DNA of 64,000 bases from Streptomyces sp. Root1304 (lineage in GTDB: Bacteria > Actinomycetota > Actinomycetes > Streptomycetales > Streptomycetaceae). Positions 39,290-57,635 of the stretch are shown piece after piece. Position 1 is the stretch's first letter, and every line of letters starts with the position of its first letter. The position numbers and the translations under genes were made by a program. The stretch lies in contig NZ_LMEP01000005.1 of the NCBI RefSeq assembly GCF_001426405.1, forward strand, positions 252,809 to 316,808. Direction: 5' to 3'. The notes under the pieces are model-generated. The model was not told the DNA's origin. It saw only the letters and a list, made by a program, of their open reading frames with translations, and searched no databases.

Positions 39290-39362
39290 GATCGTCACGT
39301 CTCCTGTCGGGGGGGGGTGGGTGCGAGGTGGATGGGTCGCGGTGGGTGGGGCACGGGAGGGT

Positions 39363-41961: not shown

Positions 41962-41993
41962 AGCGTGCGGGGAATGGCTCGCAACCGGCTCAA
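41962..41993 (-). promoter_or_regulatory. Candidate SARP-binding site for the minimal PKS operon
   Basis: Read on the minus strand, TTGAGCC (41993-41987) and GCGAGCC (41982-41976) are heptamers on an 11-base period. CACGCT (41967-41962) follows 8 bases later at the -10 position. The match to TCGAG is weaker than at 46465-46493 and 56677-56694, and only two repeats are seen. Confidence 0.45.
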
Positions 41994-42369
41994 TGGCGAT
42001 TGGAGCGCCCCGGAGAGCCTTGACAGGGGTCGCGGAACCGTGTCGGACGGGGCGCCGCCGGGCGGCCGGTCCGTTTGAGCACCGCTGGAGGAACGCTGGA
42101 GCCCGCGGGGTGGGAGCGGCGCCGGCAGGGGCTCCAACCGGCCGTTCCGTCCCGCCGGTTCGTCCGGTCGAGCGGTGCCCGAGGACCACTCGGGACGCCG
42201 GGAGGGGCTCGGGAACCCGCCGCGAGTGGCGGGAAGAGGCGCCCTCGGGCACACACCTCCGGCATGGGCCCGATCCCGCGACCTGCCAGCTGACACGGGC
42301 CGGATCCGGACCCGCGCGGCGGCCGTGAAGGGATCGAATCTGCGCCAGTCCCGGCAGGACAGCACTTTA

Positions 42370-42384
42370 CGGGAACTTTTCCCG
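42370..42384. promoter_or_regulatory. Inverted repeat upstream of the SARP gene
   Basis: CGGGAA-CTT-TTCCCG, a perfect 6-base inverted repeat with a 3-base centre, about 200 bases before the SARP start. It could be an operator for a cluster or global regulator acting on the activator gene. Confidence 0.4.
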
Positions 42385-42582
42385 GACCCTGATTCAAGGT
42401 ACGGCAAAGTAGACATTCTGCCCGACTTTCGGTGATTCTCCGACGCCCCTTCCGCCACTAGATCCGACATTGACCAGTCGATTTCCAGGACCTAACGTGA
42501 AGTCGGGGTGACCGTCAGCGACGGGGCCGCGCCGCCGGTGACGCCAGGCCGTGCGCGACTCCACTCAAACGGAGGAGACATC

Positions 42583-44673
42583 TTGGAGTTCCGACTATTG
42601 GGTCCCGTCGAAATCCTCTCGGGCGGCCGGAACATCATGCCGACCGCGCCCAAGCCACGTCAGGTCATTTCCCTGCTGATGCTGCGGCACAACACCGTGG
42701 TCCAGGCCTCCGAACTGATCGACGAACTCTGGCCCGAGCTCCCGCCCCCGAGCGCGGTGACGACCCTCCAGACGTACATCTACAAGTTCCGCAAACTGCT
42801 CCTGAAACAGGGGCTCGGGAACCTGCTCCGGACCCAGCCGGGCGGCTACACCCTCACCATTCCGTCGTCGAGCCTGGATGTCACCCGGTTCGAGGACCGG
42901 GCGGAGAAAGGCCAGGAACTTCTCCAACAGGGCGACTCCGAGGCGGCCCTGGCCTGTCTGGAGGAGGCCCTCGCCCTCTGGCGCGGCCCCGCGCTCGCCG
43001 ACGTCGAGACCGGGGGCCGGCTCTTCTCGTACACGACCCGGCTGGAGGAGCTGCGCTTCCGCATCCTCGAACTGCGCATAGAGGCCGATCTGGAGAACGG
43101 CCGGCACCGCGAACTCATCAGCGAGCTCAAGGCCCTGGTGCTGGCCCACCCGCTCCACGAGCACCTCCACGGGCTCCTGATGACGGCCCTGCACCGGTCC
43201 GGACGGCGTCACGAGGCGCTGGAGGCCTACCAGAGCCTGCGGCAGAAGATGATCGACGAGCTCGGACTCGAACCCGGCAAGGAACTCGCCCGCCTTCAGC
43301 ACGCCCTGCTGTCCGACTCCCCCGCCGATCCTCCGGAGCCACCACGGCCTGCGGCGCCCCGGACCGCCGCACCGCCGGGCCCCGCGGTCACGATCACGGC
43401 GCTCGCGCCCGTGGGTGCCCCGGCCGCGAGCACCCCGGCTCCCCTCGCCCCTCCCCCCCTGCCCGTCGTCCCTGCCGCGCCCTCCCTCCCGGCGCCCCTG
43501 CCGGTCCCGGTCCAGCGCCTTCCTCCCTCCGTCACCACCACCGGCGTCGCCCGGACCCCCGCCCGGCCGTCCGCGCCGTCCGTCGCCTGGGAGGCGGCCG
43601 GGACCCCGGCCCAACTCCCGGCGGGACTCGCCGGGTTCGTCGGCCGCACCGGCGCCCTCAAGGAGCTGGAGGCCGCGCTGCGGGCGCGCGGCGGTCCCGG
43701 GGCCGCGTGCACGTCGGCCCACATCGGGGTCGTGACCGGGCCTCCCGGCATCGGCAAGAGCGCGGTGGCCGTCCATCTCGCGCACACGCTCCGCCCGCAC
43801 TTCCCCGACGGGCAGCTCTACGCGGACCTGCGCGGCTCCTCCGCCGAGCCGCGCGACCCCGCCGAGGTGCTGCGCGGCTTCCTGCGGGCCCTGGAGGTGC
43901 CTCCCGCCCGCATCCCGGAGGGCGTGGAGGAGTGCGGAGCGCTGTTCCGGTCCCGCACGGCCGGCTTCCGGGTGCTGGTGCTCCTCGACGACGTGGCCTC
44001 CTCGGCCCAGATCCGGCACCTGCTGCCCGCCGACCCGCGCTGCGCGCTGCTGGTCACCAGCCGCCGCCGGATGACCGCCCTGGTGGAGGCCGAACGCGTC
44101 GAACTGGGCGCGCCCTCCTCCGAGGAGGCGCTGGAGATCCTCGCGGTCCTCGCCGGCCGGCAGCGGGTGGACCGGGAACCCGAGGCGGCGCAGCGGATCG
44201 TCGGGCTGCTCGGCCGGCACCCGCTGGCCCTGCGGTGCGTGGGCGGGCGGCTCGCGGCCGGTCCGGGGCTCTCGCTGTCGACGCTCGCCGACCGTCTCGA
44301 GGCCACGCCGCGGATCCTCGACGTGGCCCGGCTCGGGGAGCTGGACGTGCGCTCACGGTTCGCCGCGAGCTACACGGGCCTCGGGCACCAGGAGCAGGGC
44401 GTCTTCCGGCTGCTCGGCATGCTGGGCGAGACCCCCTTCACCGCGGCGCAGGCGGCGGAGCTGCTGGGGCGGCCGACGCGGGAGCTGGAGTCCGTCCTCG
44501 AACTGCTCGCCGACAACCACCTGCTGGCCACGGACCGTTCCGCCGACGGCATCGGCCGCTACGTCTTCGAGCGGCTGACCCGTGCGTACGCGAGGGAGCG
44601 CCTGGAGGAGACGCTCGCCGCGCCGGCCGTGGCCGAGGAGGTGGGGGTCGGGTGCGAGGCGGGGGCCCGGTGA
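42583..44673 (+). CDS. SARP-family pathway activator with NB-ARC domain
   Basis: A 696-residue Streptomyces antibiotic regulatory protein: an OmpR-like winged helix (residues 1-95, MEFRLLGPVEIL start), a bacterial transcriptional activation domain (about 95-245), a Pro/Ala linker (about 255-345), then an NB-ARC ATPase part with P-loop GPPGIGKS near 385-393. No TPR tail follows, so it is medium-sized. The unusual TTG start at 42583 is chosen because GGAGGAGA lies 6 bases upstream and the conserved domain begins there; GTG 42508 is an alternative. It probably binds the 11-base-spaced heptamers found upstream of cluster genes and activates them. Confidence 0.9.
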   Translation: MEFRLLGPVEILSGGRNIMPTAPKPRQVISLLMLRHNTVVQASELIDELWPELPPPSAVTTLQTYIYKFRKLLLKQGLGNLLRTQPGGYTLTIPSSSLDVTRFEDRAEKGQELLQQGDSEAALACLEEALALWRGPALADVETGGRLFSYTTRLEELRFRILELRIEADLENGRHRELISELKALVLAHPLHEHLHGLLMTALHRSGRRHEALEAYQSLRQKMIDELGLEPGKELARLQHALLSDSPADPPEPPRPAAPRTAAPPGPAVTITALAPVGAPAASTPAPLAPPPLPVVPAAPSLPAPLPVPVQRLPPSVTTTGVARTPARPSAPSVAWEAAGTPAQLPAGLAGFVGRTGALKELEAALRARGGPGAACTSAHIGVVTGPPGIGKSAVAVHLAHTLRPHFPDGQLYADLRGSSAEPRDPAEVLRGFLRALEVPPARIPEGVEECGALFRSRTAGFRVLVLLDDVASSAQIRHLLPADPRCALLVTSRRRMTALVEAERVELGAPSSEEALEILAVLAGRQRVDREPEAAQRIVGLLGRHPLALRCVGGRLAAGPGLSLSTLADRLEATPRILDVARLGELDVRSRFAASYTGLGHQEQGVFRLLGMLGETPFTAAQAAELLGRPTRELESVLELLADNHLLATDRSADGIGRYVFERLTRAYARERLEETLAAPAVAEEVGVGCEAGAR

Positions 44674-44809
44674 GACGCGGGGCGGGTTCCGCGCCGGCGG
44701 CCGGCCGGTCAGCCGGTGTCGAGAGGTTCTCCACACGCCGCTGCCAGGCTCCCCGGCACGCGTCCGCGACGGTCGGACGCACAGGACGAGCAGAGGGGTG
44801 GCCCGGCCC

Positions 44810-45190
44810 ATGCCGAGCGGGGAGCAGCAGGAGTTCGACGTCGCCGGCGGAGCCGGTCCGGTCGGCCGGGAGGAGTCCGGCCCCGAGGTGACCTTCGTCA
44901 ACCGGTTCACGGTCCACGGGGAGCCCGAGGAGTTCGAGGCGGTGTTCACCCGGACGTCCGCCTTCATGGCGCGGCAGCCCGGATTCGTCCGGCACAGTCT
45001 GCTGCGGGAGGTGGACGACCCGGAGCGCTATGTGAACCTCGCCGTGTGGACCGACCGGGACGCCTTCCGGCGGGCGGTGGCGCAGCCCGGGTTCGCCCCG
45101 CACGCCGCGGCGCTGCGGGCCCTGAGCCGGAGCGAGAACGGGCTGTTCACGGCCCGCCTCTCGGTGCGGGCCGGGACCCACGAGGCCTGA
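44810..45190 (+). CDS. ABM-domain monooxygenase (quinone-forming type)
   Basis: A 126-residue protein with a disordered N-terminus (1-28) and an antibiotic-biosynthesis monooxygenase fold (29-118): VTFVNRFTVHGEPEEFEAVF, the ARQPGFVRHSLLR strand, and YVNLAVWTDRDAF. The ABM family includes cofactor-free enzymes that oxidise anthrone-type polyketides to quinones. The ATG at 44810 follows AGGGGTGG. It lies 136 bases after the SARP gene on the same strand and is followed by two hairpins. Oxidation of the aromatic core is the expected role; a heme-degrading member of the same fold is the less likely alternative. Confidence 0.8.
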   Translation: MPSGEQQEFDVAGGAGPVGREESGPEVTFVNRFTVHGEPEEFEAVFTRTSAFMARQPGFVRHSLLREVDDPERYVNLAVWTDRDAFRRAVAQPGFAPHAAALRALSRSENGLFTARLSVRAGTHEA

Positions 45191-45191
45191 G

Positions 45192-45287
45192 CCGCCCGCC
45201 GGTCACGGCGGGCGGGCGGACCCACGCCCGGACCCCGTGCACACGAGCGGGCTCACGAGCCGGACCCCGGCCGGGAGCCGGGGTCCG
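45192..45287. terminator. Two consecutive hairpins between converging genes
   Basis: The first is CCGCCCGCCG / CGGCGGGCGG (45192-45215, 4-base loop). The second is CGGACCCCGGC / GCCGGGGTCCG (45261-45287, 5-base loop). Both stems are perfect. Together they should stop transcription from the monooxygenase gene and from the aminotransferase gene. Confidence 0.75.
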
Positions 45288-45307
45288 AGTCGGGGTCGGG
45301 AAGCGGG

Positions 45308-46417
45308 TCAGGAGAGGGTCGTGAGGACCTCGCGGAGGGCCTCCACGACCTTGTCCTGCTCCTCCGGGGCCAGCGAGGGGTACATGGGCAGCGAGAAGAT
45401 CTCGCGGGCGAGCCGCTCGGTGACCGGCAGGGAGCCCTCCCGGTGGCCGAGGTGGGCGAAGCCCGCCATCGTGTGGATCGGCCAGGGGTAGCTGATGTTC
45501 AGTTCGATGTCCCGCTCGCGGAGCGCCTCCATGATCGCGTCCCGGCGCGGATGGCGGACCACGTACACGTAGTACACGTGGTCGTTGCCCGGCGCGGTCC
45601 GCGGGAGGACGAGCCCGGTGTCGCCGAGCCCTTCGGCGTACCGCCGGGCGATCTCGCGGCGGGCCGCGACATAGCTGTCGAGCCGGCGGAGCTTGCGGCG
45701 CAGGATCTCGGCCTGGACCTCGTCGAGGCGGCTGTTGTGGGCGGGCAGGGCGGTGACGTAGTACCGCTCCTCCATGCCGTAGTACCGCAGGCGGCGCAGC
45801 CGGCCGTCGACCTCGTCGTCGGAGGTGAGGACCGCGCCGCCGTCCCCGTACGCGCCGAGGACCTTGGTCGGGTAGAACGAGAAGGCGGCGGCGGTGCCCA
45901 TGGTCCCGGCCGTGCGGCCGTGGTGGCGGGCTCCGTGGGCCTGGGCGCAGTCCTCGAGAACGGCCAGGCCGTGGCGGGCGGCCAGCTCCTCCAGGGGCGC
46001 CATGTCGACGCACTGGCCGTAGAGGTGGACCGGGAGCAGGCAGCGGGTGCGGGGGGTGAGGGCGGCCTCGACCTGCGAGACGTCCATGAGGTGGTCCTCG
46101 CCCACGTCGACGAAGACCGGGGTGGCTCCGGTGCCGACGATGGCGACGACGGTCGGGGCGGCGGTGTTGGAGACGGTGATCACCTCGTCCCCGGGTCCCA
46201 CTCCGAGGGCCTCCAGGCCGAGTTTGACGGCGTTGGTGCCGTTGTCCACCCCGACGCAGTGCCGGGCCCCGAGGCGGGCGGCGAACTCCTCCTCGAACGA
46301 CCGGACGCTGTCGGCGAGGACCAGCCGGCCCGAGCCGAAGACGGTGTCCACCGCGTCGAGGATCTCCTCGCGCTCCGCCGCGTACTCGTCCAGATATCCC
46401 CATACACGAATGGTCAC
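45308..46417 (-). CDS. NDP-hexose 3-aminotransferase (DegT/DnrJ/EryC1 family, EvaB type)
   Basis: A 369-residue PLP enzyme with Lys185 in [16 protein letters not shown] as the cofactor lysine and the [16 protein letters not shown] opening of sugar aminotransferases. It closely follows the layout of the vancosamine-pathway enzyme EvaB, which converts the 3-keto sugar made by 2,3-dehydration to a 3-amino sugar. GTG 46417 has GGAG 7 bases upstream; an ATG at 46423 is only one base from that site. The promoter region upstream has three SARP-type heptamers. It is transcribed away from the nucleotidyltransferase gene. Confidence 0.9.
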
Positions 46418-46450
46418 AGACATTCTCCATTTCCGCTCGGATGCGCACAT

Positions 46451-46493
46451 ATCTCAGCGGATCGTCCTCGCATCCAGCTCGATTGCACCTCGA
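46451..46493 (-). promoter_or_regulatory. SARP-type promoter of the aminotransferase gene
   Basis: On the minus strand: TCGAGGT (46493-46487), TCGAGCT (46482-46476) and GCGAGGA (46471-46465), exactly 11 bases apart. Eight bases later comes TGAGAT (46456-46451), a fair -10. SARP activators such as DnrI and ActII-ORF4 are known to bind TCGAG-type heptamers in this arrangement, in place of a -35. The predicted 5' leader is about 27 bases. Confidence 0.75.
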
Positions 46494-46509
46494 CTCGGCA
46501 TTTCCGTCC

Positions 46510-46539
46510 TTGTGACCCCCGATATCGCCTGGATAGCAT
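46510..46539 (+). promoter_or_regulatory. Predicted promoter of the nucleotidyltransferase gene
   Basis: TTGTGA (46510-46515), 18-base spacer, TAGCAT (46534-46539). The start codon begins at 46547, 7 bases after the -10, so the transcript would begin at or next to the ATG. No ribosome site precedes that ATG, which supports a leaderless mRNA. Confidence 0.5.
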
Positions 46540-46546
46540 CGCGGCC

Positions 46547-47428
46547 ATGAAAGGAATCATTCTGGCCGGAGGTACGGGAAGCCGTTTGCATCCGATCACG
46601 CTGGCCGTTTCCAAGCAGCTCCTGCCGGTCGGCGACAAACCGATGATCTACTACCCGCTGTCGGTGCTGATGCTGGCGGACATCAGGGACATCCTCATCA
46701 TCAGCACCCCTCATGACCTGCCGCAGTTCCGGCGCCTGCTCGGCGACGGCAGCCAGCTCGGGCTTCGCATCGACTACGCGGAGCAGCCCAAGCCGAACGG
46801 CATCGCGGAGGCCTTCGTCATCGGCGCCGACCATATCGGGGACGATTCCGTGGCGCTGGTGCTCGGCGACAACATATTCCACGGACATTCCTTCTCCGAA
46901 GTACTCAGAAAAGAGCGGGAGAACCTCGACGGGTGCCTTCTCTTCGGTTACGAGGTGCACGATCCCGAGCGGTACGGGGTCGGCGAGACCGATGAGGACG
47001 GAATGCTGATATCCATCGAGGAGAAGCCGGACCGGCCCCGCTCGAACCGTGCGATCACCGGCCTCTACTTCTACGACAACGACGTGGTCGAGCGGGCCGC
47101 CGCGCTGCGGCCCTCGGCACGCGGCGAGCTGGAGATCACCGATCTGAACCGGGTGTACATGGAGCGCGGGCGGGCCCGGCTGAGGGAGCTCGGCCGGGGC
47201 TTCGCCTGGCTGGACACCGGGACCCCGGAGTCGCTGCTCCAGGCGGCCCAGTACGTGCGCACCCTGGAGGAGCGTCAGGGGGTGCGGATCGCCTGCGTCG
47301 AGGAGGTGGCCCTGCGGCGGGGCTTCATCGGTCCCGAGGAGTGCCACCGGCTGGGGGCCCGGCTCGGGAACTCGGAGTACGGGCGCTATGTGATGGCCAT
47401 CGCCGGGGAGCACCCCTCCGCGGTGTGA
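46547..47428 (+). CDS. rmlA: Glucose-1-phosphate thymidylyltransferase
   Basis: A 293-residue nucleotidyltransferase that makes dTDP-glucose from dTTP and glucose-1-phosphate, the first step to deoxysugars. The signature [12 protein letters not shown] (residues 7-18), [11 protein letters not shown] and the LGDNIFHG and EKPDRPRS motifs are all present, with normal length. The start has no ribosome site and sits 7 bases after a -10-like hexamer, so it may be translated from a leaderless transcript. It converges on the N-methyltransferase gene with only 17 bases between, and a hairpin spans both 3' ends. It serves the deoxysugar genes of this cluster. Confidence 0.95.
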
Positions 47429-47442
47429 GGGTGCTCCCCGGC
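47402..47442. terminator. Hairpin overlapping the rmlA 3' end
   Basis: A perfect 14-base stem (GCCGGGGAGCACCC and its complement) around a 13-base loop that contains the rmlA stop codon. The right arm lies between the two converging stops, so one structure can end both transcripts. Confidence 0.75.
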
Positions 47443-47445
47443 GTC

Positions 47446-48156
47446 TCAGGGGCGGCGCGCGACGAAGAGTCCGCGTGCCGTCCACTCCGGCCGGACGTAC
47501 TCCGCCGGGCACCCGGCGTCCGCGAAGGCGGACAGGTACTCGTCCAGGGTGAACAGGGTGAGGAGGTCGACCTCGGTGAACTCCCTGATGCCGGCGGCCT
47601 CGCCGACCACGAACCGGACCTCCATCCGCGTGGTGCGGCCCTCGCGGGTGGAGTGCGAGACCCGGGCGACGGTCCGGTGCTCGTCGCTCGCCAGGTCGCC
47701 GGCGACGTAGCCGTCGAGGAACCGCTCGGGGAACCACCAGGGTTCGACGACGAGCACTCCTCCGGGGCGCAGGTGCCGGGCCATGGCGGCGACCGCCTGC
47801 CGCATGTCCGGCACGGACCTCAGATAGCCGATGGCGGTGAAGAGGCACACCACGGCGTCGAAGGTTCGGCCGAGGCCGAAGGCGCGCATGTCGCCCTGGT
47901 GGAGGGGGACTCCGGGGAGCCGGGCTGCGGCGCGTTCCAGCATGGCCGCGGAGAGTTCGAGCCCCTCGGTGTGGGCGAAGAGGCCGTCGAAGGCCTCCAG
48001 GTGGGCGCCGGTGCCGCAGGCGACGTCCAGCAGGGAGTCGGCGGCGGGCAGCCGGTCCCGGATGAGACGGGTGACGTCGGCGGCCTCGGCCGACCAGTCC
48101 TTGCCGCGGGACCGGTAGACAAGTTCGTAGACGTCCGCCAGGTCGTGGCCGTACAT
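47446..48156 (-). CDS. Sugar N,N-dimethyltransferase (DesVI/TylM1 type)
   Basis: A 236-residue SAM methyltransferase. It opens MYGHDLADVYELVYRSRGKDW as in DesVI/TylM1, has the SAM motif LLDVACGTG (near 44-52), QGDMRAF and the family's PWWFPERF (near 125-132). Enzymes of this type put two methyl groups on the amino group of dTDP-amino sugars. AAGGAGG sits 4-5 bases before ATG 48156. It is 59 bases downstream of the cyclase gene on the same strand. With the EvaB-type aminotransferase it implies a dimethylamino sugar. Confidence 0.88.
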   Translation of the reverse strand: MYGHDLADVYELVYRSRGKDWSAEAADVTRLIRDRLPAADSLLDVACGTGAHLEAFDGLFAHTEGLELSAAMLERAAARLPGVPLHQGDMRAFGLGRTFDAVVCLFTAIGYLRSVPDMRQAVAAMARHLRPGGVLVVEPWWFPERFLDGYVAGDLASDEHRTVARVSHSTREGRTTRMEVRFVVGEAAGIREFTEVDLLTLFTLDEYLSAFADAGCPAEYVRPEWTARGLFVARRP

Positions 48157-48215
48157 CGGCCTCCTTCGGAGGGGTCGGGTCGTGGGTACGGAAGCGGCGC
48201 CGGACGCCGGTGGTG

Positions 48216-48995
48216 TCACTCCTCGACGAGGGCGACCGCGCGGGCCCAGCCGGCCCCGGCGCCGGCGATCTTCACCGGAAGGCAGGAGACCTGGAAGCCG
48301 TACGGTCCGGGGAGCGCCTCCAGGTTGTCCAGCCGCTCGATCTGGCAGTACTCGCGGTCCCGGCCGATCATGTGCGCGGGCCAGAGCACATCGGGGTCAC
48401 CGGTGGCCCGGTAGCGGGCGATGATGTCGCCGAAGGGGGCGTCCAGGCTGAACGCGTCCGTTCCGATGACCCGGACGCCGAGGTCGAGGAGGAGGTGGAC
48501 GGCGGGGCCGTCGAGGCCGGCGAAGTCGGTGAAGTACCGGGCGGTCCCCCGGTGGCGCTGGGCGCCGGTGTGCAGCAGGACGATGTCCTTCGGGTCCGGG
48601 ACGCGGCCGATGCGGGCGAACTCCTTCTCCAGGCGGTCCGCGCCGATGACGCCGGGCGGCACGTCGGTGAGGTCCAGCACCGTTCCCGGGCGCAGGAACC
48701 AGTCCAACGGCAGCTGGTCGATGTTCCGGGGCACGCCGTCGCCGTAGCCCGCCCGGGATCCGTAGTGGGAGGGCGCGTCCACATGGGTGCCGGTGTGGGT
48801 GGTGAGCGTGAGGCGGTCGAGGGACAGGAACTCGCCGTCGGGGAGTTCGTCGGGGTCGAAGGAGACGCCGAAGTGGGTGCGCATCTCCTCGCTCATGTGC
48901 AGGGCGCCCTCGCGGGGGGTGAGGACGTGGTGCTCGACGGGATCGGGTTCCCAGAGCGCCGCGTCCACCGCCGAGGACAGGTCGATGAGCCTCAC
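48216..48995 (-). CDS. PF04199-type cyclase family protein
   Basis: A 259-residue protein of the cyclase/kynurenine-formamidase-like family. The metal motif H-T-G-T-H-V-D-A-P (near residues 70-78) is intact, as are the later LLHTG and DAFSLDAPF segments. Members in aromatic polyketide clusters are implicated in late ring closure (for example OxyN-like proteins). GTG 48995 follows GGAGG by 6 bases. It is co-transcribed with the N-methyltransferase and divergent from the NTF2-fold gene. Ring cyclisation is likely; a hydrolase role on a sugar or amide cannot be excluded. Confidence 0.8.
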   Translation of the reverse strand: MRLIDLSSAVDAALWEPDPVEHHVLTPREGALHMSEEMRTHFGVSFDPDELPDGEFLSLDRLTLTTHTGTHVDAPSHYGSRAGYGDGVPRNIDQLPLDWFLRPGTVLDLTDVPPGVIGADRLEKEFARIGRVPDPKDIVLLHTGAQRHRGTARYFTDFAGLDGPAVHLLLDLGVRVIGTDAFSLDAPFGDIIARYRATGDPDVLWPAHMIGRDREYCQIERLDNLEALPGPYGFQVSCLPVKIAGAGAGWARAVALVEE

Positions 48996-49052
48996 GGCGC
49001 ACCTCCAGGGGATCGGGGCCGGGTTCAGGGTCGGCATCCTCGCGGGCGGGGC

Positions 49053-49081
49053 CGGAGCGACGGTCGAGCCGGGCTGGAGTC
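49053..49081 (+). promoter_or_regulatory. Possible SARP heptamers upstream of the NTF2-fold gene
   Basis: CGGAGCG (49053-49059), TCGAGCC (49064-49070) and TGGAGTC (49075-49081) are 11 bases apart. Only the middle one is a clean TCGAG, and no good -10 follows at 8 bases, so this may be chance in GC-rich DNA. Confidence 0.35.
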
Positions 49082-49170
49082 CGGGGCCCGCCGGGCACGA
49101 GTCCGGTTCCAAGGGGCCGGGCGAGCATCGGAGGAAGCGGCCCGCGACCGGCGGGCGAGGAGGGAGACCC

Positions 49171-49608
49171 GTGAGCGAGACCGTCAGCACGGCGTACGCG
49201 TCGCTGTGCGCCGACATCCAGCGGTTCCATGCCCGGCAGATGCGGCTGCTGGACTCGGGCGACGCCGAGGGCTGGGCCGCCACCTTCACCGAGGACGGGC
49301 TGTTCGCACCGCCCTCGCTGCCCGAGCCCGTCCGCGGGCGGGCCGCCCTGGCGGCGGGCGTCCGCGCGGCGCACAAGGAGCTCGCCGCCGCCGGTGAGGT
49401 GCGCCGGCACGTGCTGACCACGGCCGAGGTGGACGAGCCCGACGCGGACGGCGCGGTGCGGGTGCGCTCGTACGTGCAGGTGGTGGCGACGCTGCGGGAC
49501 CAGGCGCCGCGCCTGCTCCTGATGTGCGTGTGCGAGGACGTGCTGGTCGTGGAGGACGGCGCGTGGCGGGTGCGCGAACGGTACGTGACCCGCGACGACC
49601 GGCCCTGA
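49171..49608 (+). CDS. SnoaL-like NTF2-fold protein
   Basis: A 145-residue cone-shaped NTF2-fold protein: helix RFHARQMRLLDSGDAEGWAATF split at a Gly, then the FTEDGLFAPP strand and the C-terminal VLVVEDGAWRVRERYV strands. This fold includes SnoaL-type polyketide cyclases and small hydroxylases of aromatic polyketide clusters. GTG 49171 follows GAGGAGGGAG. It stands alone on the plus strand, divergent from the PF04199 cyclase gene. A role in ring closure or hydroxylation of the aglycone is likely but not settled. Confidence 0.75.
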   Translation: MSETVSTAYASLCADIQRFHARQMRLLDSGDAEGWAATFTEDGLFAPPSLPEPVRGRAALAAGVRAAHKELAAAGEVRRHVLTTAEVDEPDADGAVRVRSYVQVVATLRDQAPRLLLMCVCEDVLVVEDGAWRVRERYVTRDDRP

Positions 49609-49629
49609 GCGGGCGCCCGGGAGGCGGAC

Positions 49630-49668
49630 GAGCCCGGTGGGACGTCGTGGTGACGTCCCACCGGGCTC
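49630..49668. terminator. Strong hairpin between converging genes
   Basis: A perfect 17-base stem (GAGCCCGGTGGGACGTC and complement) with a 5-base loop, ending the NTF2-fold gene and the six-gene sugar operon that comes from the right. Confidence 0.85.
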
Positions 49669-49689
49669 GCGCGTACCGCGGGGCTCCCG

Positions 49690-50955
49690 TCAGCGGAGGG
49701 TGTCGGCCGAGACGACCGCGGGCTTGGGGAAGGGCAGGACGAACCGGCCTCCGGCCCGCAGGAAGTCCGCCTCCTTGCGGAGGATCTCGTCCGCGTAGTT
49801 CCACGCCAGCATCAGATAGACGTCGGGCGGGTCGCTCCGGGCGTCGCCGGGGCTGCGCACCGGGATGTGGGTGCCGGGCAGGACCTTGCCCTGTTTCAGC
49901 GTGGTGGTGTCGGTGCAGTAGGCCACCTCGTCGGCCCCGAGGCCGCAGACGTTGAGGATCGTGGTGCCCTTCGCCGAGGCCCCGTAGCCGGCGATCCGCT
50001 CCCCCTCCGCGATCAGGGAGCGGACCAGGGCGGGAAGCTCCTCGCGGACGTTCCGGACGCCCCGGGCGAACTCCCGGTAGGCGGCGTCGGAGCCGAGCCC
50101 GGCCCGTTCCTCGGCCGCCCTCAGCGCGCCGACCGCGTCGGTGACGGGGCGACGGGCCTCGGTCCTTCCCACGAGGACCAGGAGGGAGCCGCCGTGGACC
50201 GGGAGCCGCTCGACGTCGAAGAGGCTCAGTCCGTGCCGGGTGAAGAGGGTGTCGAGGGTGCGGACGAGGAAGTACGACAGGTGCTCGTGGTAGATGGTGT
50301 CGAAGGCGTACTTCTCCAGCAGGTCGACCGCGTACGGGACTTCGACGGCGAACACCCCGTCGGGCGCGAGCAGGGCGCGCACCCCGGCGAGGACTCCGGC
50401 GAGGTCGTCGATGTGGGCGAAGACGTGGCGGCCGAGGACGAGGCGCGCGGGGCCGTGGGAGCGGCGTACTGCGGAGGCGGTGGCCTCGGTGAAGAACTCG
50501 GGCAGGGTGGGGATGCCGCGGGCGTCGGCGACGGCCGCGAGGTTGCGGGCGGGGTCCACGCCGAGCACGCGGCACCCCTGGCGGGCGAAGGCCTCCAGTT
50601 GCTGGCCGGTGTTGCTGCCCAGTTCCACGACCAGGTCGCCGGCGGCGAACCCGGCGCGCTCCCGGCAGGTGGTGGCGACGAACTCCATGTGCCGGGTGAT
50701 GGTCTCCGAGTCGGAGGTGACGTAGCTGTACGTGCGGTACATCACCTCGGGGTCGACGACGTGGGTGACGCTCATCAGCCGGCAGGAGCGGCAGGAGATC
50801 ACGCCGAGCGGGTAGGCCGGCTCGTCCTCGTAGGAGGCGGCCGGTTCCAGGAACGCGTTGGCCAGCGGCACCTCGCCGAGGTCGACCACGTCCTGCCAGT
50901 CCGAACCACCGCACACCCGGCAGCTGGTGACGGGCCGTACGTTCTGGGCGTTCAT
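49690..50955 (-). CDS. Second sugar C-methyltransferase (TylCIII/NovU family)
   Basis: A 421-residue three-domain SAM methyltransferase: an N-terminal zinc part with two Cys pairs (CRVCGG and CRSC, residues 12-55), a central SAM domain (LVVELGSNTG near 106-115) and a C-terminal part with GYGASAKGTT and the WNYADEI segment. It belongs to the same superfamily as the 3-C-methyltransferase at 54043-55254 but is clearly divergent. It may act at C-3, C-4 or C-5 of another sugar in the pathway. The ATG at 50955 overlaps the dehydratase stop (ATGA). Last gene of the sugar operon. Confidence 0.85.
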   Translation of the reverse strand: MNAQNVRPVTSCRVCGGSDWQDVVDLGEVPLANAFLEPAASYEDEPAYPLGVISCRSCRLMSVTHVVDPEVMYRTYSYVTSDSETITRHMEFVATTCRERAGFAAGDLVVELGSNTGQQLEAFARQGCRVLGVDPARNLAAVADARGIPTLPEFFTEATASAVRRSHGPARLVLGRHVFAHIDDLAGVLAGVRALLAPDGVFAVEVPYAVDLLEKYAFDTIYHEHLSYFLVRTLDTLFTRHGLSLFDVERLPVHGGSLLVLVGRTEARRPVTDAVGALRAAEERAGLGSDAAYREFARGVRNVREELPALVRSLIAEGERIAGYGASAKGTTILNVCGLGADEVAYCTDTTTLKQGKVLPGTHIPVRSPGDARSDPPDVYLMLAWNYADEILRKEADFLRAGGRFVLPFPKPAVVSADTLR

Positions 50956-52439
50956 GCCCGGTCCTTCCTCTCCGTGGCCGGCGCCGGTGCGTCCGGCATC
51001 AGCAGGCTCTGCAGACAGGCCACCAGGCTGCGCGCCTGGATGTTCAGGTAGTGGCTGTGCCGCAGCAGCTCGACGAGCTGGTGGACGGTCATCCACCGGT
51101 AGTCGGGGTCGTCGGGCGGGACGTCGACGTCGGTGTCGACGATCAGATAGCGGTTGCGCGCGTGGTGGAAACGGCCGCCCTCCTCGGAGAGGACCGACTG
51201 GAAGCGGATCCGCGACGGGTCCGCGCCCTCCACCGCGTCGAGGTAGCGGGGGCGGGCGCTCCTCGGCAGGTGCTCGTAGGAGGCGGGGGTGCACTGGACG
51301 GTCGGCGCCAGCTCGACCACGTCCATGTAGCCCGCTTCGACCCGGGCGTTCATCAGGACGTGCAGGACTCCGTCGAAGGAGCGGGTGAGGAAGGCGACGA
51401 CACCGGTGCCGTGCGGTTCGATCATCGGCTGGGACCAGTGGGCGACCTCCCGGCCGCCGGCCTCCACGCGGACTCCGATGACGTCGAAGAAGGCTCCGGA
51501 GGCGTGCGAGACACGTTCGGGGGTGCGGTGCCAGCCGGGCAGCCCGGCCAGCGGGACGCGGCGGGCGTGGACCTCGGTGCGGGTTCGGGCCTCGGTGATC
51601 CAGCTGAGGACGGCGCCCGAGGGGTGCCGGACACCGGCCGAGGGGTCGCAGGAACGGAAGAGGGCCGCCCGGAAGGGGTCGGTGGGCGGGCCGAGTTCCC
51701 GGGCCAGCTCGGCGTGGGCGAAGGGCAGACAGGACAGGACCGTGCGGGCGTCCATGTTGACCACGTCGTCCTCGGCGAGGAGCCGGTGGAGTTGCCCGAG
51801 GGTCAGCCAGTGGAAGCCCTCGTGGACCTCCACCTCGCCGTGCGCCTCGACCACCATGTTCCGGTTCCGTTTGTGGTGGAAGGCGGAACCCTGTTCGGAC
51901 TGCCGTACGTCGACGAGCGGGCCGTGGGCTCCGGGACTGCGGAACCGGTCGAGGTAGGGGACGGGCCGGCCGCCGTGGACGCCGGTGTAGTTGCTGCGGG
52001 TGGCCTGGACGGTCGGGGAGATCTGTACGCCGTTGGCGTTGCCGGGCTCGACCTTGGCCTGCATCAGGCAGTGCAGGACGCCGTCGAACTCCTTGACCAG
52101 GATGCCCAGCACGCCGACCTCGGGCTGGTTGATGATCGGCTGGCTCCACGCCGGGACCGGTCCGGCCGGCATCCGCACGTCGAGGCCCTCCACCGTGAAG
52201 AAGCCTCCGGTGTGGTGGCGCAGGTTGCCGGTGCCGGGCTCGGTCTCCCAGCCGGTGAGCTCGTCGAGCGGCACCCGCTCCACCCGGGTGAAGGTGCGTG
52301 CGGACGCCGCGGCGTACCAGTCGTGGAACGCCTCGTACGAGCTGCGCCCGCCCTCGCGGGCGGCCGCGGAGGCGGCGACGCGCAAGGGGGTGGCGGCGTC
52401 GCGCGGGCGGCTCGCGGTGCGCGTGATGGCTGCGGTCAT
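50952..52439 (-). CDS. dTDP-4-keto-6-deoxyhexose 2,3-dehydratase (EvaA type)
   Basis: A 495-residue protein made of two tandem repeats, as in EvaA/TylX3/DnmT. The two halves each carry an NLRHHTGGFF- or SHASGAFF-like strand, a W-S-Q-P segment (WSQPIINQPE; WSQPMIEPHG) and an RNRNMVV / RNRYLIV segment. The enzyme removes water across C-2/C-3 to give the 3,4-diketo sugar, committing to 2-deoxysugars. The ATG at 52439 follows GGAGCAGCC and overlaps the ketoreductase stop. It feeds the EvaB-type aminotransferase. Confidence 0.93.
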   Translation of the reverse strand: MTAAITRTASRPRDAATPLRVAASAAAREGGRSSYEAFHDWYAAASARTFTRVERVPLDELTGWETEPGTGNLRHHTGGFFTVEGLDVRMPAGPVPAWSQPIINQPEVGVLGILVKEFDGVLHCLMQAKVEPGNANGVQISPTVQATRSNYTGVHGGRPVPYLDRFRSPGAHGPLVDVRQSEQGSAFHHKRNRNMVVEAHGEVEVHEGFHWLTLGQLHRLLAEDDVVNMDARTVLSCLPFAHAELARELGPPTDPFRAALFRSCDPSAGVRHPSGAVLSWITEARTRTEVHARRVPLAGLPGWHRTPERVSHASGAFFDVIGVRVEAGGREVAHWSQPMIEPHGTGVVAFLTRSFDGVLHVLMNARVEAGYMDVVELAPTVQCTPASYEHLPRSARPRYLDAVEGADPSRIRFQSVLSEEGGRFHHARNRYLIVDTDVDVPPDDPDYRWMTVHQLVELLRHSHYLNIQARSLVACLQSLLMPDAPAPATERKDRA

Positions 52440-53377
52440 GGCTGCTCCACTGGGTGGTCCGCGCGGGACGCGTCCCACATGTCCTTGATCGATTCGGGCA
52501 GGTCCAGGGCCGGGCGCCAGCCCAGCGACCGGGCCGCGCGGCCGATGTCGACACGGGTCCAGTCGCCGCCCCGGGACTCGACCGGTGCGGTACGGAGCCG
52601 GACGGCGCCCGGCGGGGGTCCGGCCGCGGCGACGAGCAGGTCGAGCAGGCGGGCCACCGGTACGGCTTCGCCGCGGCCCACGTTGATCACCTGTCCGACG
52701 ACGGGGGCGGTCGCGGCGGCGAGGACGGCGGCGGCCAGGTCCCGCACGTCCAGGAAGTCCCGGCGGGCGTCGGCGACGGTCAGTTCGGCGGGCCGTTCTG
52801 GGGTGGCGGCGAGCAGCCGCCGGAGCGCGGCGCCGAGGAAGCCGACCTCGGCGCCCGGGCCGCAGAGGTTGACCACGCGCAGGACCACCCCGTCCACCAG
52901 CCCCGCGCGGGTGGCGTCGAGGACGGCCTCGGCCCCGGCGAGCTTGCTGCGCCCGTACGCGGTGACCGGGCGGGGCGCCCGGGTCTCCTCGGCGGCGGTG
53001 CCGACGGGCAGCGGGCCGTACTCGTGGACGGAGCCGATCTGCACCAGGCGGATCCGGTCCGGCAGCCGGGCCAGCGCGGCGAGCAGGTTCTCCACGAGGC
53101 GGGCGTGGACGCGGTCGTTCTCCGCCTCGCCGGTGACCCAGCCGCCGGTCGCGTTGACGACGGTGTCCACACGGGCGGCGGCCAGCAGGCCGGCGAGCTC
53201 GGCGGGGTCGGTGGCCGCCGCGTCCAGGGCGAGGAACCGGCCGGTCGTGTCCGGGGGGCGGCGGCGGGCCACCCGGAGGACGGGCGAGCCCGCCGCCGCG
53301 AACGCGGCGGTCACCGCGCGGCCCACGCAGCCCGTCGCGCCGAACACGGCGACGGCGGGCCGTCGACCGGCGGTCAC
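52436..53377 (-). CDS. dTDP-4-keto-sugar 4-ketoreductase (SDR, EvaE type)
   Basis: A 313-residue extended SDR with the NAD(P) motif GATGCVGR (residues 13-20) and the YGRSK active-site Tyr/Lys. Sequence around GSVHEYGPLP and RRDFLDVRDLA is typical of 4-ketoreductases of deoxysugar pathways. GTG 53377 forms a GTGA overlap with the epimerase stop. It should reduce the C-4 ketone as a late sugar step; the stereochemistry at C-4 cannot be read here. Confidence 0.87.
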   Translation of the reverse strand: MTAGRRPAVAVFGATGCVGRAVTAAFAAAGSPVLRVARRRPPDTTGRFLALDAAATDPAELAGLLAAARVDTVVNATGGWVTGEAENDRVHARLVENLLAALARLPDRIRLVQIGSVHEYGPLPVGTAAEETRAPRPVTAYGRSKLAGAEAVLDATRAGLVDGVVLRVVNLCGPGAEVGFLGAALRRLLAATPERPAELTVADARRDFLDVRDLAAAVLAAATAPVVGQVINVGRGEAVPVARLLDLLVAAAGPPPGAVRLRTAPVESRGGDWTRVDIGRAARSLGWRPALDLPESIKDMWDASRADHPVEQP

Positions 53378-53988
53378 CGGACCGGGCCGCCACACAGCGC
53401 CCGTTCGACCTCCAGGCAGGTGCGGTAGTCCGGGAGGGTGCCGGACTTCTCCGCCGTCTCCAGGGTGGGTGCGGCCAGGTCCCGTTCCGACATGACCGGC
53501 TCGACGTCCGTCGGCAGGGAGAGTCCGAGCACCGGGTCGAAGACGGAGAGGGCCAGCTCGTTCTGCGGCGCGTACTCCCCGGACAGCATGTACGACATCA
53601 CCGTCCGGTCCTCCAGCGCCACGAAGGCGTGGGCGACGCCGACGGGGAAGTACACGGCCCGGAAGTCCTCCTGGTCGAGCAGGACCGTCTCCGACCTGCC
53701 GTAGGTGGGCGAGCCGACCCGGACGTCGATCACGATGTCCAGCGCGCTGCCGCGCGCGCAGTAGACGTACTTGGCGATGCCCGGGGGCGTCAGGGTGTAG
53801 TGGGCGCCCCGGATCGTTCCGCGCCGGGAGACGCTGTGGTTGGTCTGGGCCACCGGGAACAGCGGGTGTCCCAGGGCCTCTCGGGCGGCCGTCTCCTGGA
53901 ACGGGGAGACGAAGAGCCCCCGTTCGTCGGTGAAGATCTTCGGCCGGAACTCGAACGCGCCTTCCACGGCGAGCTGTCGCGACTGCAT
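53374..53988 (-). CDS. dTDP-4-keto-6-deoxyhexose 5-epimerase (EvaD/RmlC-like)
   Basis: A 204-residue RmlC-type cupin. The base His63 sits in TIRGAHY and the proton-relay Tyr133 in MSYMLSGEY; SPFQETAA and the FPVGVAHAFVAL strand are family marks. In vancosamine-type pathways it inverts C-5 to make the L-sugar. It is followed by the ketoreductase through a 4-base overlap and lies 54 bases after the 3-C-methyltransferase. A 3,5-epimerase role is the alternative. Confidence 0.92.
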   Translation of the reverse strand: MQSRQLAVEGAFEFRPKIFTDERGLFVSPFQETAAREALGHPLFPVAQTNHSVSRRGTIRGAHYTLTPPGIAKYVYCARGSALDIVIDVRVGSPTYGRSETVLLDQEDFRAVYFPVGVAHAFVALEDRTVMSYMLSGEYAPQNELALSVFDPVLGLSLPTDVEPVMSERDLAAPTLETAEKSGTLPDYRTCLEVERALCGGPVR

Positions 53989-54042
53989 GACACCGTCCTC
54001 GGTTGCTTGTGGTGGTGCCGGCCTGGCCGGCGGTGGTCTCGG

Positions 54043-55254
54043 TCAGAGGACACGGACCTCGGGGACGTACACGATCCAGCGCCCGCCGGACTCACGGAAC
54101 AGCCGTTCCTTCGCCATGATCTCCTCGGCGTGGTTCCAGGCGAACAGGACCGCGTAGTCCGGGTAGGGGTGGCCGAGCGCCTCGGTGGGGCGGACCGGGA
54201 TGTGCGAACCCGGCATGAGCTTCCCGTGCTTGGCCGGAGTCACGTCGCACACCCACTCGACCGACTCGGGGCCGATGCCGCAGAAGTTGGTGACGGTGGC
54301 GCTCTTGGCCGTGGCGCCGTAGCCGACGACCCGCTTGCCTTCCGCACGCAGCTCCCGCAGGAGCGTGGTCAGTTCGGTACGGACGCGCTCGATCCCCGCG
54401 GCGAAGGCGTCGAAGACCTCGGGGGTGCCGATCCCCTTGGCGTCCTCCTCGGCGATCAGCGCGGCGACGGCGGGGCTCGGCACGGCACGGCCCGCGCGCT
54501 TGAGGGTGTAGCGGACCTCGCCGCCGTGCACCGGCAGCCGTTCGACGTCGACGACCTCGAAGCCGAAGCGCGCGGCGGCGGCGCTCACCGAGCGCACGGT
54601 GAAGAAGTAGAAGTGCTCGTCGTAGATCTGGTCGAAGGAGGTGCGCTCCAGGATGTCGCCGAGGTAGGGGTCCTCGAAGACGAAGGCACCGTCCGGGGCC
54701 AGCAGGGTGTCGAGGCCCCGGAAGACCGAGTCGAGATACGGGATGTGGCAGATGGTGTTGGCGGAGTAGACCAGGTCGGCCGGTCCGTCGGCGGCCGCGA
54801 TGCCGGCCGCCGTGGACTCCTCGAAGAACTCGTTGAGGACCCGGACCCCCTGCTGGCGGGCGAGTTCGGCGACGCCGCCGGAGGGCTCGACGCCCAGGTG
54901 CCGGATGCCCTCCTTGGCGAGGGCCCGCAGCATCACCCCGTCGTTGCAGCCGATCTCCACCACGAACGGGTCGGGGCCGCGCAGGTGTTCACGGGAGAGC
55001 CGGCCCGCGGTCTGCTCGAAGTGCCGTCGCATGTGGACGGAGCCCGAGGAGTGGTACGGGTACGCCTCGTGGAACATCCGGTCCCGGGGGACCTCCTCAA
55101 GGAGCTGGGTCATGCCGCAGGACCCGCAGCTGCCCACGGCGAGGGGGTAGAAGAACTCGTCGTCGACGCGGCCGGGGTCCACGAACGCGTCGGAGAGGGG
55201 CTGGAGCCCGAAGTCGAAGAACGGACGGACGGATCCTCCACAGACACGGCACAT
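54043..55254 (-). CDS. NDP-hexose 3-C-methyltransferase (EvaC/TylCIII type)
   Basis: A 403-residue three-domain methyltransferase. The Cys-rich N-terminus (MCRVCGG ... CGSC) binds zinc, the SAM motif VVEIGCNDG is near residues 94-102, and the C-terminal part has the RVVGYGATAKSATVTNFCGIG motif with DVTPAKHGKLMPGSH. It matches the EvaC pattern very well, so it should methylate C-3 of the 3-amino-4-keto sugar, giving the branched vancosamine skeleton. The ATG at 55254 follows GAGGAAGG. Second gene of the operon led by the P450-like gene. Confidence 0.92.
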   Translation of the reverse strand: MCRVCGGSVRPFFDFGLQPLSDAFVDPGRVDDEFFYPLAVGSCGSCGMTQLLEEVPRDRMFHEAYPYHSSGSVHMRRHFEQTAGRLSREHLRGPDPFVVEIGCNDGVMLRALAKEGIRHLGVEPSGGVAELARQQGVRVLNEFFEESTAAGIAAADGPADLVYSANTICHIPYLDSVFRGLDTLLAPDGAFVFEDPYLGDILERTSFDQIYDEHFYFFTVRSVSAAAARFGFEVVDVERLPVHGGEVRYTLKRAGRAVPSPAVAALIAEEDAKGIGTPEVFDAFAAGIERVRTELTTLLRELRAEGKRVVGYGATAKSATVTNFCGIGPESVEWVCDVTPAKHGKLMPGSHIPVRPTEALGHPYPDYAVLFAWNHAEEIMAKERLFRESGGRWIVYVPEVRVL

Positions 55255-55289
55255 GGGGCCTTCCTCGGTTCATAGGGTCCGGGGCGGAC

Positions 55290-56642
55290 TTACCGCCGGA
55301 CGTTTCCTTGGCGGGCGACGGGAAAGCGGAACACGCCGCCGGTGATCGGGGACCGGAGGCCGCGCAGCACCTCGTCGGTCCTGGTCAGGCCGGGCAGCTC
55401 CTCGGCCAGCACCCGGAGCGCGGCCTCGGCCGCGGCCCGGACCGCGGGACCGACGAGGCCGTCGGCACGGCCCTCCTCGGAGAAGGGGTGCCGGTCGCGG
55501 GCGGGGCGGTGGAGGCTGAACCGGTCCGGGTCGCGGTACCGGCGGGGGTCGCGGTGGGCCGCCTCGGTGAGGAGGACGACCTCCTCGTCCGCCGCCACCG
55601 GGGTCCCGGCGAGTTCCAGGTCCTCGCGCGCGTACAGCCGGTGCAGGCGGACGGGCGGCGCGTGGAGCAGCGTCTCGGCGACGGCGGCGGGCGCGAGACC
55701 GGGGTCCTCGCACAGGTCCCGCCACTGCTCCGGACGGTCGAGGAGGAGTTCGACGGCGTTGCCCGCGAGGGTGGCGGCGGCGGGGAGGCCGACCAGGGCC
55801 AGCAGGGCGCAGACCGTCAGGACGTCCTCGGGCGGCCGGGGGCCGTCGGGGGACGGGGTCGCCGCGAGGCGGCGGGGGAGGCCGGACCGGGCGGCGGTGC
55901 CTGGGTCCGCCGTGCGGCGCGCGTCGTGGGTGGTGGGGTCTCCGGAGCCGTCCGGCGACGCCGACGGCCGGAGCAGCGCCAGGAGTTCCGGCAGCGCGGC
56001 GTCGTACCGGCGGGCCGTGTCCAGCCTCGGCGGGCAGAGCGTGGCGTCGAGGACGCCGGTGAGCCGCCCGCAGAGATCCGCGAAGCGGTCGGCCTCGTGC
56101 TCCGGTACGCCGAGCAGGACGCGCCCGGCGTCCACCGTGGCGGGCCGGAGCAGGTCGTCCATCAGGTCGAACCGCTCCCCCACCGCCGACGCACGGCGCC
56201 GGTAGGCCCGTACGGCCGCCGCGGACCTGCCCCGCCGCGCGGCCCCCTCGATCACGGGCGCGGCCCATCGCCGCAGCCGTTCGTACTCCTCCCGGTCGAG
56301 CTCCGCCGGAAGCCCGGCGAGCGGCAGGGCCTCCCGCAGGGACGGCACGTCCCACGGGGCCGGTTCCCCGGCCGGCTCCCCCGGCGCGGGGCCGGCGCCG
56401 GGGGGCCGGGGCGTGAGGCGCCGGTCTGCCAGCGCGGCCGTGACCACCTCGTGGTCGGCCGTCGCCCACGCGCCGGCGCTGCTCCAGGAGAGGGGTCCCC
56501 GCTCGCGGACGCGGCGGCCCAGTTCGGCCCGGTCGTCTCCGGCCGCACGCAGCATCAGGGCGTACGGGTCGTCTTTCGTGCCCAGGATCCACTGGACTCC
56601 GCGCAGGGTCAGCAGGACGCGTCCCAGCGCACTGTCGGTCAT
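55290..56642 (-). CDS. Heme-less P450-like glycosyltransferase auxiliary protein (DesVIII/EryCII/DnrQ type)
   Basis: A 450-residue protein with the P450 fold but no heme-ligand Cys: the region that should be F-G-x-G-x-H-x-C reads HPFSEEGRADGL. The I-helix lacks the usual acid-Thr pair, and the E-x-x-R helix is replaced (AETLLHAPPVRLHRLYARED). This is the pattern of proteins that bind and activate a partner glycosyltransferase. Start: ATG 56642; an upstream ATG at 56654 has no ribosome site but lies next to the predicted transcript start. First gene of the sugar operon, behind a clear SARP-type promoter. No partner glycosyltransferase is in the window. Confidence 0.82.
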   Translation of the reverse strand: MTDSALGRVLLTLRGVQWILGTKDDPYALMLRAAGDDRAELGRRVRERGPLSWSSAGAWATADHEVVTAALADRRLTPRPPGAGPAPGEPAGEPAPWDVPSLREALPLAGLPAELDREEYERLRRWAAPVIEGAARRGRSAAAVRAYRRRASAVGERFDLMDDLLRPATVDAGRVLLGVPEHEADRFADLCGRLTGVLDATLCPPRLDTARRYDAALPELLALLRPSASPDGSGDPTTHDARRTADPGTAARSGLPRRLAATPSPDGPRPPEDVLTVCALLALVGLPAAATLAGNAVELLLDRPEQWRDLCEDPGLAPAAVAETLLHAPPVRLHRLYAREDLELAGTPVAADEEVVLLTEAAHRDPRRYRDPDRFSLHRPARDRHPFSEEGRADGLVGPAVRAAAEAALRVLAEELPGLTRTDEVLRGLRSPITGGVFRFPVARQGNVRR

Positions 56643-56662
56643 GCTCGCCACCATGGGGAGGG

Positions 56663-56694
56663 ACGCTAGGCAGGCCTCCTCGACCCTCTCTCGA
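56663..56694 (-). promoter_or_regulatory. SARP-type promoter of the six-gene sugar operon
   Basis: On the minus strand TCGAGAG (56694-56688) and TCGAGGA (56683-56677) are 11 bases apart. Exactly 8 bases later comes TAGCGT (56668-56663), a good -10. The predicted transcript start near 56656 lies just before the P450-like gene. Confidence 0.75.
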
Positions 56695-56723
56695 CTTCCC
56701 TTGGCTCCGGCCCGGCCGGTCCG

Positions 56724-56741
56724 TCGAGCCGGTCACGAGGG
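56724..56741 (+). promoter_or_regulatory. Candidate SARP heptamers for the rightward SDR gene
   Basis: TCGAGCC (56724-56730) and ACGAGGG (56735-56741), 11 bases apart, on the plus strand. CAGCGG at 56750-56755 is a poor -10 at the 8-base position; TAGGGT at 56761-56766 is closer to consensus. With the minus-strand site 30 bases away, this spacer could drive both directions. Confidence 0.45.
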
Positions 56742-56775
56742 GAGCGTGGCAGCGGCCCCCTAGGGTCACGCGGTC

Positions 56776-57618: not shown

Positions 57619-57635
57619 AGGATGCGGGGAACGCG

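Follow-up and report, generated by a model that had tools for sequence, protein, structure and literature searches.

The question raised by this locus is how an aromatic polyketide gene cluster is switched on, and whether the short direct repeats found between its genes belong to a single activator. The DNA analysed, called the window below, is a stretch of 64,000 nt of Streptomyces sp. Root1304 (C5:252809-316808 of a 7.58-Mb genome; GC 73.3%). It carries a roughly 44-kb type II polyketide/deoxysugar cluster, which continues for 19 kb to the right of the window, up to extended position 83315 (in these extended coordinates position 64001 corresponds to C5:316809). The cluster is of the sugar-decorated aromatic polyketide type and includes, at 42583-44673, a gene for a Streptomyces antibiotic regulatory protein (SARP). 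It is very probable, judging from the sequence comparisons described here, that the repeats form the operators of a SARP-type, pathway-specific activator, most likely the 42583-44673 protein, and that they serve about ten units. An open-access literature search aimed at the cluster found no description of it, none of the papers listed naming the strain, and we claim no product.

SARP sites are described as repeats with an 11-bp (or a 22-bp) period, the 3' repeat lying 8 bp upstream of the -10 hexamer (PMC10936776, PMC4393881). In the motif given for ActII-ORF4 and DnrI, the repeats are TCGAGXX heptamers with 4-bp spacers, located upstream of the -10 (PMC6510168), and four act promoters carry TCGAG direct repeats (PMC13011467). 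SARP sites have also been predicted from the motif plus transcription starts (PMC8780764). As both the motif and this type of prediction are published, the regulon considered here is of a known kind: the operator motif and the type of switch are already known, and what is given here is a promoter map for one cluster.

Predicted operators of the cluster

The conservation analysis relies on four species, i.e. that of the window and three relatives with a syntenic cluster (L070, L071, L072). They come from a collection scan with the SARP in which the best 80 of 507 hits were kept; among these best 80, three close orthologs are 76-80% identical to it in the best segment, and the next drops to 46%. 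Of the 40 predicted cluster genes, 37 were matched in the clusters of all three relatives, the remaining three in one or two of these clusters. As the four species are related, conservation among them does not amount to four independent events.

The following ten operators are predicted (repeats, gap to the -10, -10 hexamer; all conserved in 4/4 species, which for the rightward gene at 56724 refers to the repeats). KS-alpha, CLF and ACP stand for ketosynthase alpha, chain-length factor and acyl carrier protein, SDR for short-chain dehydrogenase/reductase, and ABM for antibiotic biosynthesis monooxygenase.

41962-41993, minus strand: KS-alpha-CLF-ACP operator; TTGAGCC/GCGAGCC, 8 nt, CACGCT; three mismatches
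44719-44750, plus strand: probable operator of an ABM-family gene; TCGAGAG/TCCACAC, 8 nt, CAGGCT; found by matrix
46451-46493, minus strand: sugar aminotransferase operator; TCGAGGT gcaa TCGAGCT ggat GCGAGGA, 8 nt, TGAGAT
56663-56694, minus strand: operator of the glycosyltransferase-activator/deoxysugar unit; TCGAGAG aggg TCGAGGA, 8 nt, TAGCGT
56724-56766, plus strand: SARP-type operator of the rightward SDR gene; TCGAGCC/ACGAGGG/GTGGCAG, 8 nt, TAGGGT
60068-60099, minus strand: polyketide cyclase operator; TCGAGTT/ACCAGGG, 8 nt, GAAGCT
extended 65373, minus strand: SDR operator, right of the window; gap 8
extended 66362, plus strand: MycE-type methyltransferase operator, right of the window; gap 8
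extended 68974, plus strand: SDR operator, right of the window; gap 8
extended 71760-71791 (C5:324568; L014 7760-7791), plus strand: glycosyltransferase operator, right of the window; exact TCGAG doublet

Three heptamers at 46451-46493 and two at 56663-56694, 11 bp apart and with the last one 8 nt before the -10, had been pointed out in an earlier, sequence-only reading of this DNA, and both were recovered by direct reading and by scanning. The weaker version which it proposed before KS-alpha also held, being conserved in all four species. In the case of the rightward SDR gene (56724-56741 in that reading) the repeats stood, and the -10 proved to be one repeat slot further away than a gap of 8. 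Nine of the predicted promoters fit this gap directly; the tenth, that of the rightward SDR, fits it only with a degenerate third slot (GTGGCAN), as its -10 (TAGGGT, 56761-56766) stands 19 nt (8+11) after the second repeat.

A site tentatively listed before the NTF2-fold gene (49053-49081) was dropped: TCGAG is present, no -10 lies in register, and the pair is loosely kept (in three of the four species at up to 2/10 mismatches, TCGAG itself in two of four). Relative B alone has a different 2-mismatch site nearby, which is missing in the other three. Apart from this site the earlier list was retained, and it was incomplete, as it omitted 44719-44750, 60068-60099 and the four sites to the right of the window; with these, the predicted regulon is roughly double the size given there. 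The 44719 site, found by the matrix, belongs to a region outside the 14 intergenic regions of the grid used below; it is placed just 3' of the SARP gene and, in species D, inside the predicted 3' end of the SARP open reading frame.

Of the 13 conserved hits at 11/8 in a scan of the whole cluster, three more were not counted as operators, namely 57548 (inside a gene), 61757 and 46462 (a second register of the triple site). Nor was an rmlA operator counted: read in the opposite direction, the aminotransferase heptamers yield TCGAY pairs, with no -10 in the species of the window and a loose one in the three relatives only. The rmlA gene has its own conserved upstream element at 46493-46547 (CTTGTG ... 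GATAGCATC), where TAGCAT precedes the ATG by about 7 nt. Conserved pairs lacking a -10 were found at 75116(+), 75173(-) and 42086(+)/42100(-). About 110 bp upstream of the KS-alpha operator, at 42075-42101, there are 11-bp-spaced TTGAG/TGGAG/TGGAG repeats (TCCAG/TCGAG on the minus strand); the TGGAG pair is kept in four species, no -10 lies in register, and this is possibly a secondary operator.

Spacing, core and genomic rarity of the repeats

The geometry was examined in a grid of 14 intergenic regions aligned in four species, with up to 3/13 mismatches allowed at the same column in all four. With a spacing of 11 and a gap of 8, eight sites were common to all four species; the runner-up among 320 geometries gave four, also at spacing 11, and any spacing other than 11 gave at most two. 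When the -10 was left out, spacing 11 yielded 15 conserved pairs (some of them opposite or overlapping readings of one site), and every other spacing from 6 to 29 yielded 0-2. Among 1024 cores compared at 11/8, TCGAG gave eight sites, its 15 one-letter neighbours 2-5, and the other 1008 at most two and mostly none, the mean over all cores being 0.07. Thus, the 11-bp period and the grid peak at gap 8 are those of SARP operators, and TCGAG, as the best of 1024 cores, places them in the ActII-ORF4/DnrI specificity class. In a leave-one-promoter-out matrix test, five of the eight sites of the window's species outscored all 916,436 background positions.

A genome-wide scan at 11-base spacing plus -10, which the sequence-only reading had proposed, pointed in the same direction. 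Exact TCGAG-N6-TCGAG pairs occur at 23 places in 7.58 Mb, three of them in the cluster, compared with eight for the reversed control. The exact full pattern, TCGAG-N6-TCGAG-N10-TANNNT, is found twice in 7.58 Mb, at 56663 and at C5:324568, both of them positions of the cluster. If up to two mismatches are tolerated, the pattern with its -10 at 8 nt matches 42 places, against 29 in the reversed control. Five of the 42 places are in the cluster, including both exact ones, and two 1-mismatch places lie elsewhere. Given 37 places in the 7.54 Mb outside the cluster, a stretch of 44.3 kb should contain 0.22 at the same rate (Poisson P of 5 or more, about 3e-6). All five cluster places are intergenic. 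Among the outside places, 25 have a locus (12 do not), and 17 of these 25 fall in predicted genes; three intergenic ones are within 150 nt of a same-strand start, as judged by a crude gene finder. In the whole genomes of the three relatives, all five exact full-pattern matches are in the homologous cluster, so that the four genomes together (about 34 Mb) have 7/7 exact matches in this cluster.

These data bear on the simplest alternative, i.e. that the sites are chance matches in GC-rich DNA and that the conserved ones reflect general intergenic conservation. The motif is short, and most mismatch-tolerant hits in a single genome are indeed background, since the reversed control reaches 29 against 42 and 37 of the 42 places are outside the cluster. 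However, chance does not account for the confinement of all exact matches in four genomes to one cluster, nor for the aligned intergenic DNA, in which no geometry but spacing 11 with gap 8, and no core but TCGAG and its one-letter neighbours, stands out. This explanation is already contradicted, and we assign it a negligible probability.

A further alternative is that the repeats are those of PhoP or of another OmpR-family response regulator reading 11-bp direct repeats, which seems very improbable. PhoP boxes differ in sequence, which counts against it. No exact site lies outside the cluster, contrary to what one would expect of a global regulator, and the last repeat, 8 nt from the -10, occupies the SARP position. 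In its favour, the repeats bound by PhoP and by AfsR at afsS overlap (PMC10972967).

The cluster-situated SARP

The SARP considered to be the activator, and the promoter from which it may be expressed, are as follows.

42583-44673, plus strand: cluster-situated 'medium' SARP of 696 aa with a TTG start (Pfam; AfsR/EmbR match)
42470-42498, plus strand: probable housekeeping promoter of the SARP gene, TTGACC-N17-TAACGT

The protein contains a Trans_reg_C domain (OmpR-type winged helix; 4.3e-7) and a BTAD domain (8e-46), and matches the AfsR and EmbR structures by sequence, as expected of a SARP. Its NB-ARC domain (9.2e-6) with the Walker A motif GPPGIGKS and its length of 696 aa assign it to the medium SARPs, whose plan is described as a SARP domain followed by NB-ARC, about 600 residues in all (PMC10972967). 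Pfam found no TPR domain above the cut-off; a sub-cut-off TPR_1 match lies inside BTAD. The TTGACC/TANCGT promoter elements recur in the four-species alignment, and the sigma-70 consensus scan did not flag them. No conserved operator with a -10 facing the SARP's own start was found in the aligned intergenic regions of the four species. Two relatives have a TTA (bldA) codon at position 6 of the SARP gene, and the third has one at codon 49. The SARP gene of the window's species has none, nor has any other predicted gene of its cluster.

It could also be that the sites are genuine SARP sites bound mainly by another SARP of this genome, e.g. an AfsR-like or a short-frame one. There are 13 BTAD matches in all, two of which lie in short open frames (259 and 297 aa), and different SARPs share the 11-bp repeat geometry. 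On the other hand, the repeat published for AfsR is CGTT(T/C)ATCGNN and not TCGAG (PMC10972967), and each of the four syntenic clusters has kept its SARP. The recognition helix of the cluster SARP, TYIYKFRK, is unique among the 11 BTAD proteins in which this region was readable (L011 and L013 being the exceptions), and the ten other helices do not resemble it. Moreover, when 3.4 kb around each of the other 12 BTAD matches was scanned, the matrix gave one weak hit in total. Another SARP is therefore an unlikely main ligand, and the cluster-situated protein remains the preferred candidate.

In the AfsR complex, two protomers touching RNA polymerase occupy a pair of 11-bp repeats whose centre is at -29.5; a sigma-adaptation mechanism was proposed, and changing T-38 or T-27 abolishes binding (PMC10936776). 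If the -10 is set at -12 to -7 in our sites, the first T of each heptamer would correspond to -38 and -27. In the 32 aligned sites, which were preselected, this T is present in the upstream heptamer in 32/32, the downstream one begins with T (16 sites), G (10) or A (6), and position 4 of the heptamer is always A in both repeats. Because the sites of this column table and of the matrix were preselected with up to three mismatches in four species, part of their uniformity is built in; in the geometry, core and no -10 controls, every alternative went through the same selection. The cluster SARP keeps five of 12 AfsR contact residues (W74, P79, T88, R94 and K95), and these five belong to the six DNA-contact residues rated highly conserved by the AfsR paper. 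R92 of AfsR, which reads that T, is a lysine here, and our guess is that this explains the relaxed downstream T.

Several results weigh against the assignment of these sites to the cluster SARP. Seven of the 12 AfsR contact residues differ, including R92, one of two base-reading ones, and several -10 hexamers (CACGCT, GACGGT, GAAGCT, CAGGCT) are far from consensus. In the leave-one-out test the aminotransferase, 65373 and 66362 sites were matched by 10, 3 and 4 background positions, respectively, with a matrix that ignores the third aminotransferase heptamer. When the whole cluster was scanned, genes included, spacings of 9, 12 or 15 gave up to 16 conserved hits, against 13 at 11/8; as coding periodicity yields hits at other spacings, the geometry test is clean only between genes. 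Three more distant SARPs (L073-L075; 40-46% identity), with a similar helix and encoded beside polyketide synthase (PKS) or deoxysugar genes, have at most one strong matrix hit in their 10-kb flanks (L073, 18.0), and L073 and L074 share no conserved site, their pairwise footprint being empty for 1024 cores at up to two mismatches. The link between helix and heptamer was thus not replicated. Likewise, 77 distant SARP loci (L073-L149) had no TCGAG enrichment, and heptamer decoding among them gave no trustworthy core. The matrix of the window gave 3, 6 and 2 hits on L073, L074 and L075, respectively, against about 0.9 expected each, and 112 against 61 expected on the 74 other loci, whose base composition, like that of the former three, differs.

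A model of the regulon and further features of the cluster

The reading of this locus as a SARP regulon is supported by the geometry, the statistics and the four-species conservation, from which we infer SARP binding and activation. According to the proposed model, the SARP would be made from its own housekeeping-type promoter, and two or more protomers would bind side by side over the -35 region, one per 11-bp turn, helping RNA polymerase to use a suboptimal -10 located 8 nt after the last heptamer. A nucleotide bound at the NB-ARC domain may gate the protein. In the window, the units switched on would be KS-alpha/CLF/ACP, the ABM-family gene, the aminotransferase, the glycosyltransferase-activator/deoxysugar operon, the rightward SDR and the cyclase; to the right of it, two SDR genes, the MycE-type methyltransferase and a glycosyltransferase. 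The earlier suggestion that one activator ties several operons together agrees with this, as the sites join backbone (KS-alpha), aminotransferase, sugar, cyclase and glycosyltransferase units. The predicted target genes in the window are listed below.

39035-41875, minus strand: ACP, CLF and KS-alpha genes (Pfam), unit of the 41962 site
44798-45190: ABM-family open reading frame, probable target of the 44719 site
45308-46417, minus strand: DegT/DnrJ/EryC1-family aminotransferase (Pfam), target of the 46451 site
49690-56654, minus strand: presumed operon of a P450-derived glycosyltransferase activator, two C-methyltransferases, 3,5-epimerase, NAD-dependent epimerase/reductase and NDP-hexose 2,3-dehydratase (Pfam/NCBIfam), its extent presumed from gene order and strand
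56776-57618, plus strand: NAD-dependent epimerase/dehydratase-family (SDR) gene (Pfam), target of the 56724 site
59057-60031, minus strand: polyketide cyclase gene (Pfam match within the frame 59057-62992), target of the 60068 site

In four promoters the ATG follows the -10 by 6-9 nt, i.e. by 8 nt (56654), 9 nt (56776), 6 nt (69012) and 7 nt (71799), and these are probably leaderless; in the other six, 24-86 nt separate the -10 from the start codon. Such starts are not exotic, as 22.2% of mRNAs are leaderless in S. avermitilis (PMC8780764). Each compact cassette carries a glycosylation or SDR-type tailoring gene, and leaders precede the backbone, aminotransferase, cyclase and methyltransferase units. 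One might speculate, although we consider it doubtful, that a single medium SARP governs a ten-promoter regulon in two grades, with four compact operator-promoter-leaderless-gene cassettes as opposed to leadered units, and with TTA control varying among the four species.

The system combines features of several known ones. It shares the TCGAGXX heptamers with 4-bp spacers with ActII-ORF4 (actinorhodin) and DnrI (daunorubicin) (PMC6510168). Unlike these small SARPs of about 300 residues (PMC4393881), the protein described here has 696 aa and an NB-ARC domain. In this it resembles FdmR1 (fredericamycin), CpkO, CdaR and BenR, medium SARPs with NB-ARC and about 600 residues, of which FdmR1 and BenR serve type II PKS clusters and the FdmR1 site has three heptamers (PMC10972967); the likeness drawn here is one of domain plan, and in our case about ten promoters are predicted. 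In the type II PKS cluster controlled by OtcR (oxytetracycline), too, several promoters carry 11-bp-spaced repeats ending 8 bp before the -10. The sites were predicted by repeat alignment, and five promoters were shown to be activated in E. coli reporters, whereas our sites are predictions from sequence; the OtcR repeats, in contrast to ours, are read as 9-mers such as CGGTCGAAG (PMC4393881). The arrangement of side-by-side protomers on two 11-bp repeats is that seen by cryo-electron microscopy for AfsR on afsS, where the suboptimal -10 is CACTGT, compared with CACGCT here (PMC10936776). AfsR differs in repeat sequence and in several contact residues, and is a global regulator with TPR repeats.

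Other cluster genes recognized by Pfam in the window encode RmlA, a methyltransferase, a PF04199 cyclase and a SnoaL-like protein, and the cluster also has FAD oxidase and ABC transporter genes. Between the latter two, at about 61851-61920, lies a block strongly conserved in the four species, which contains CTGTCAG-N5-CTGACA and GACGTCATTAACGCTTCTAAGCTCGAA. The general repeat search did not list these short arms. The block resembles an operator and may belong to a different regulator, perhaps the MarR protein of the cluster. To the right of the window the cluster includes SDRs, a MycE-like methyltransferase, five EryCIII-like glycosyltransferases, the MarR regulator, RmlD and further oxygenases. 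Two genes there have ring-hydroxylating alpha-subunit domains (L014 11611-12579, minus strand, and 18173-19315, plus strand, the second also with a Rieske domain), and a PhyH oxygenase gene is located nearby (L014 15004-15813); such enzymes are not known to be common in a cluster of this kind. The gene following the rightward SDR is

57615-58859: acyl-CoA-dehydrogenase-like gene

and, with an aminotransferase and C-methyltransferases among its neighbours, its product could be the aminosugar N-oxygenase of a nitrosugar pathway.

In a single genome, mismatch-tolerant hits are mostly background, and it is after a few syntenic clusters have been aligned that a SARP regulon becomes readable from sequence, together with its controls. 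What results here is a testable, promoter-by-promoter map of how an aromatic polyketide cluster common to four Streptomyces would be switched on, and this map names the activator to overexpress.

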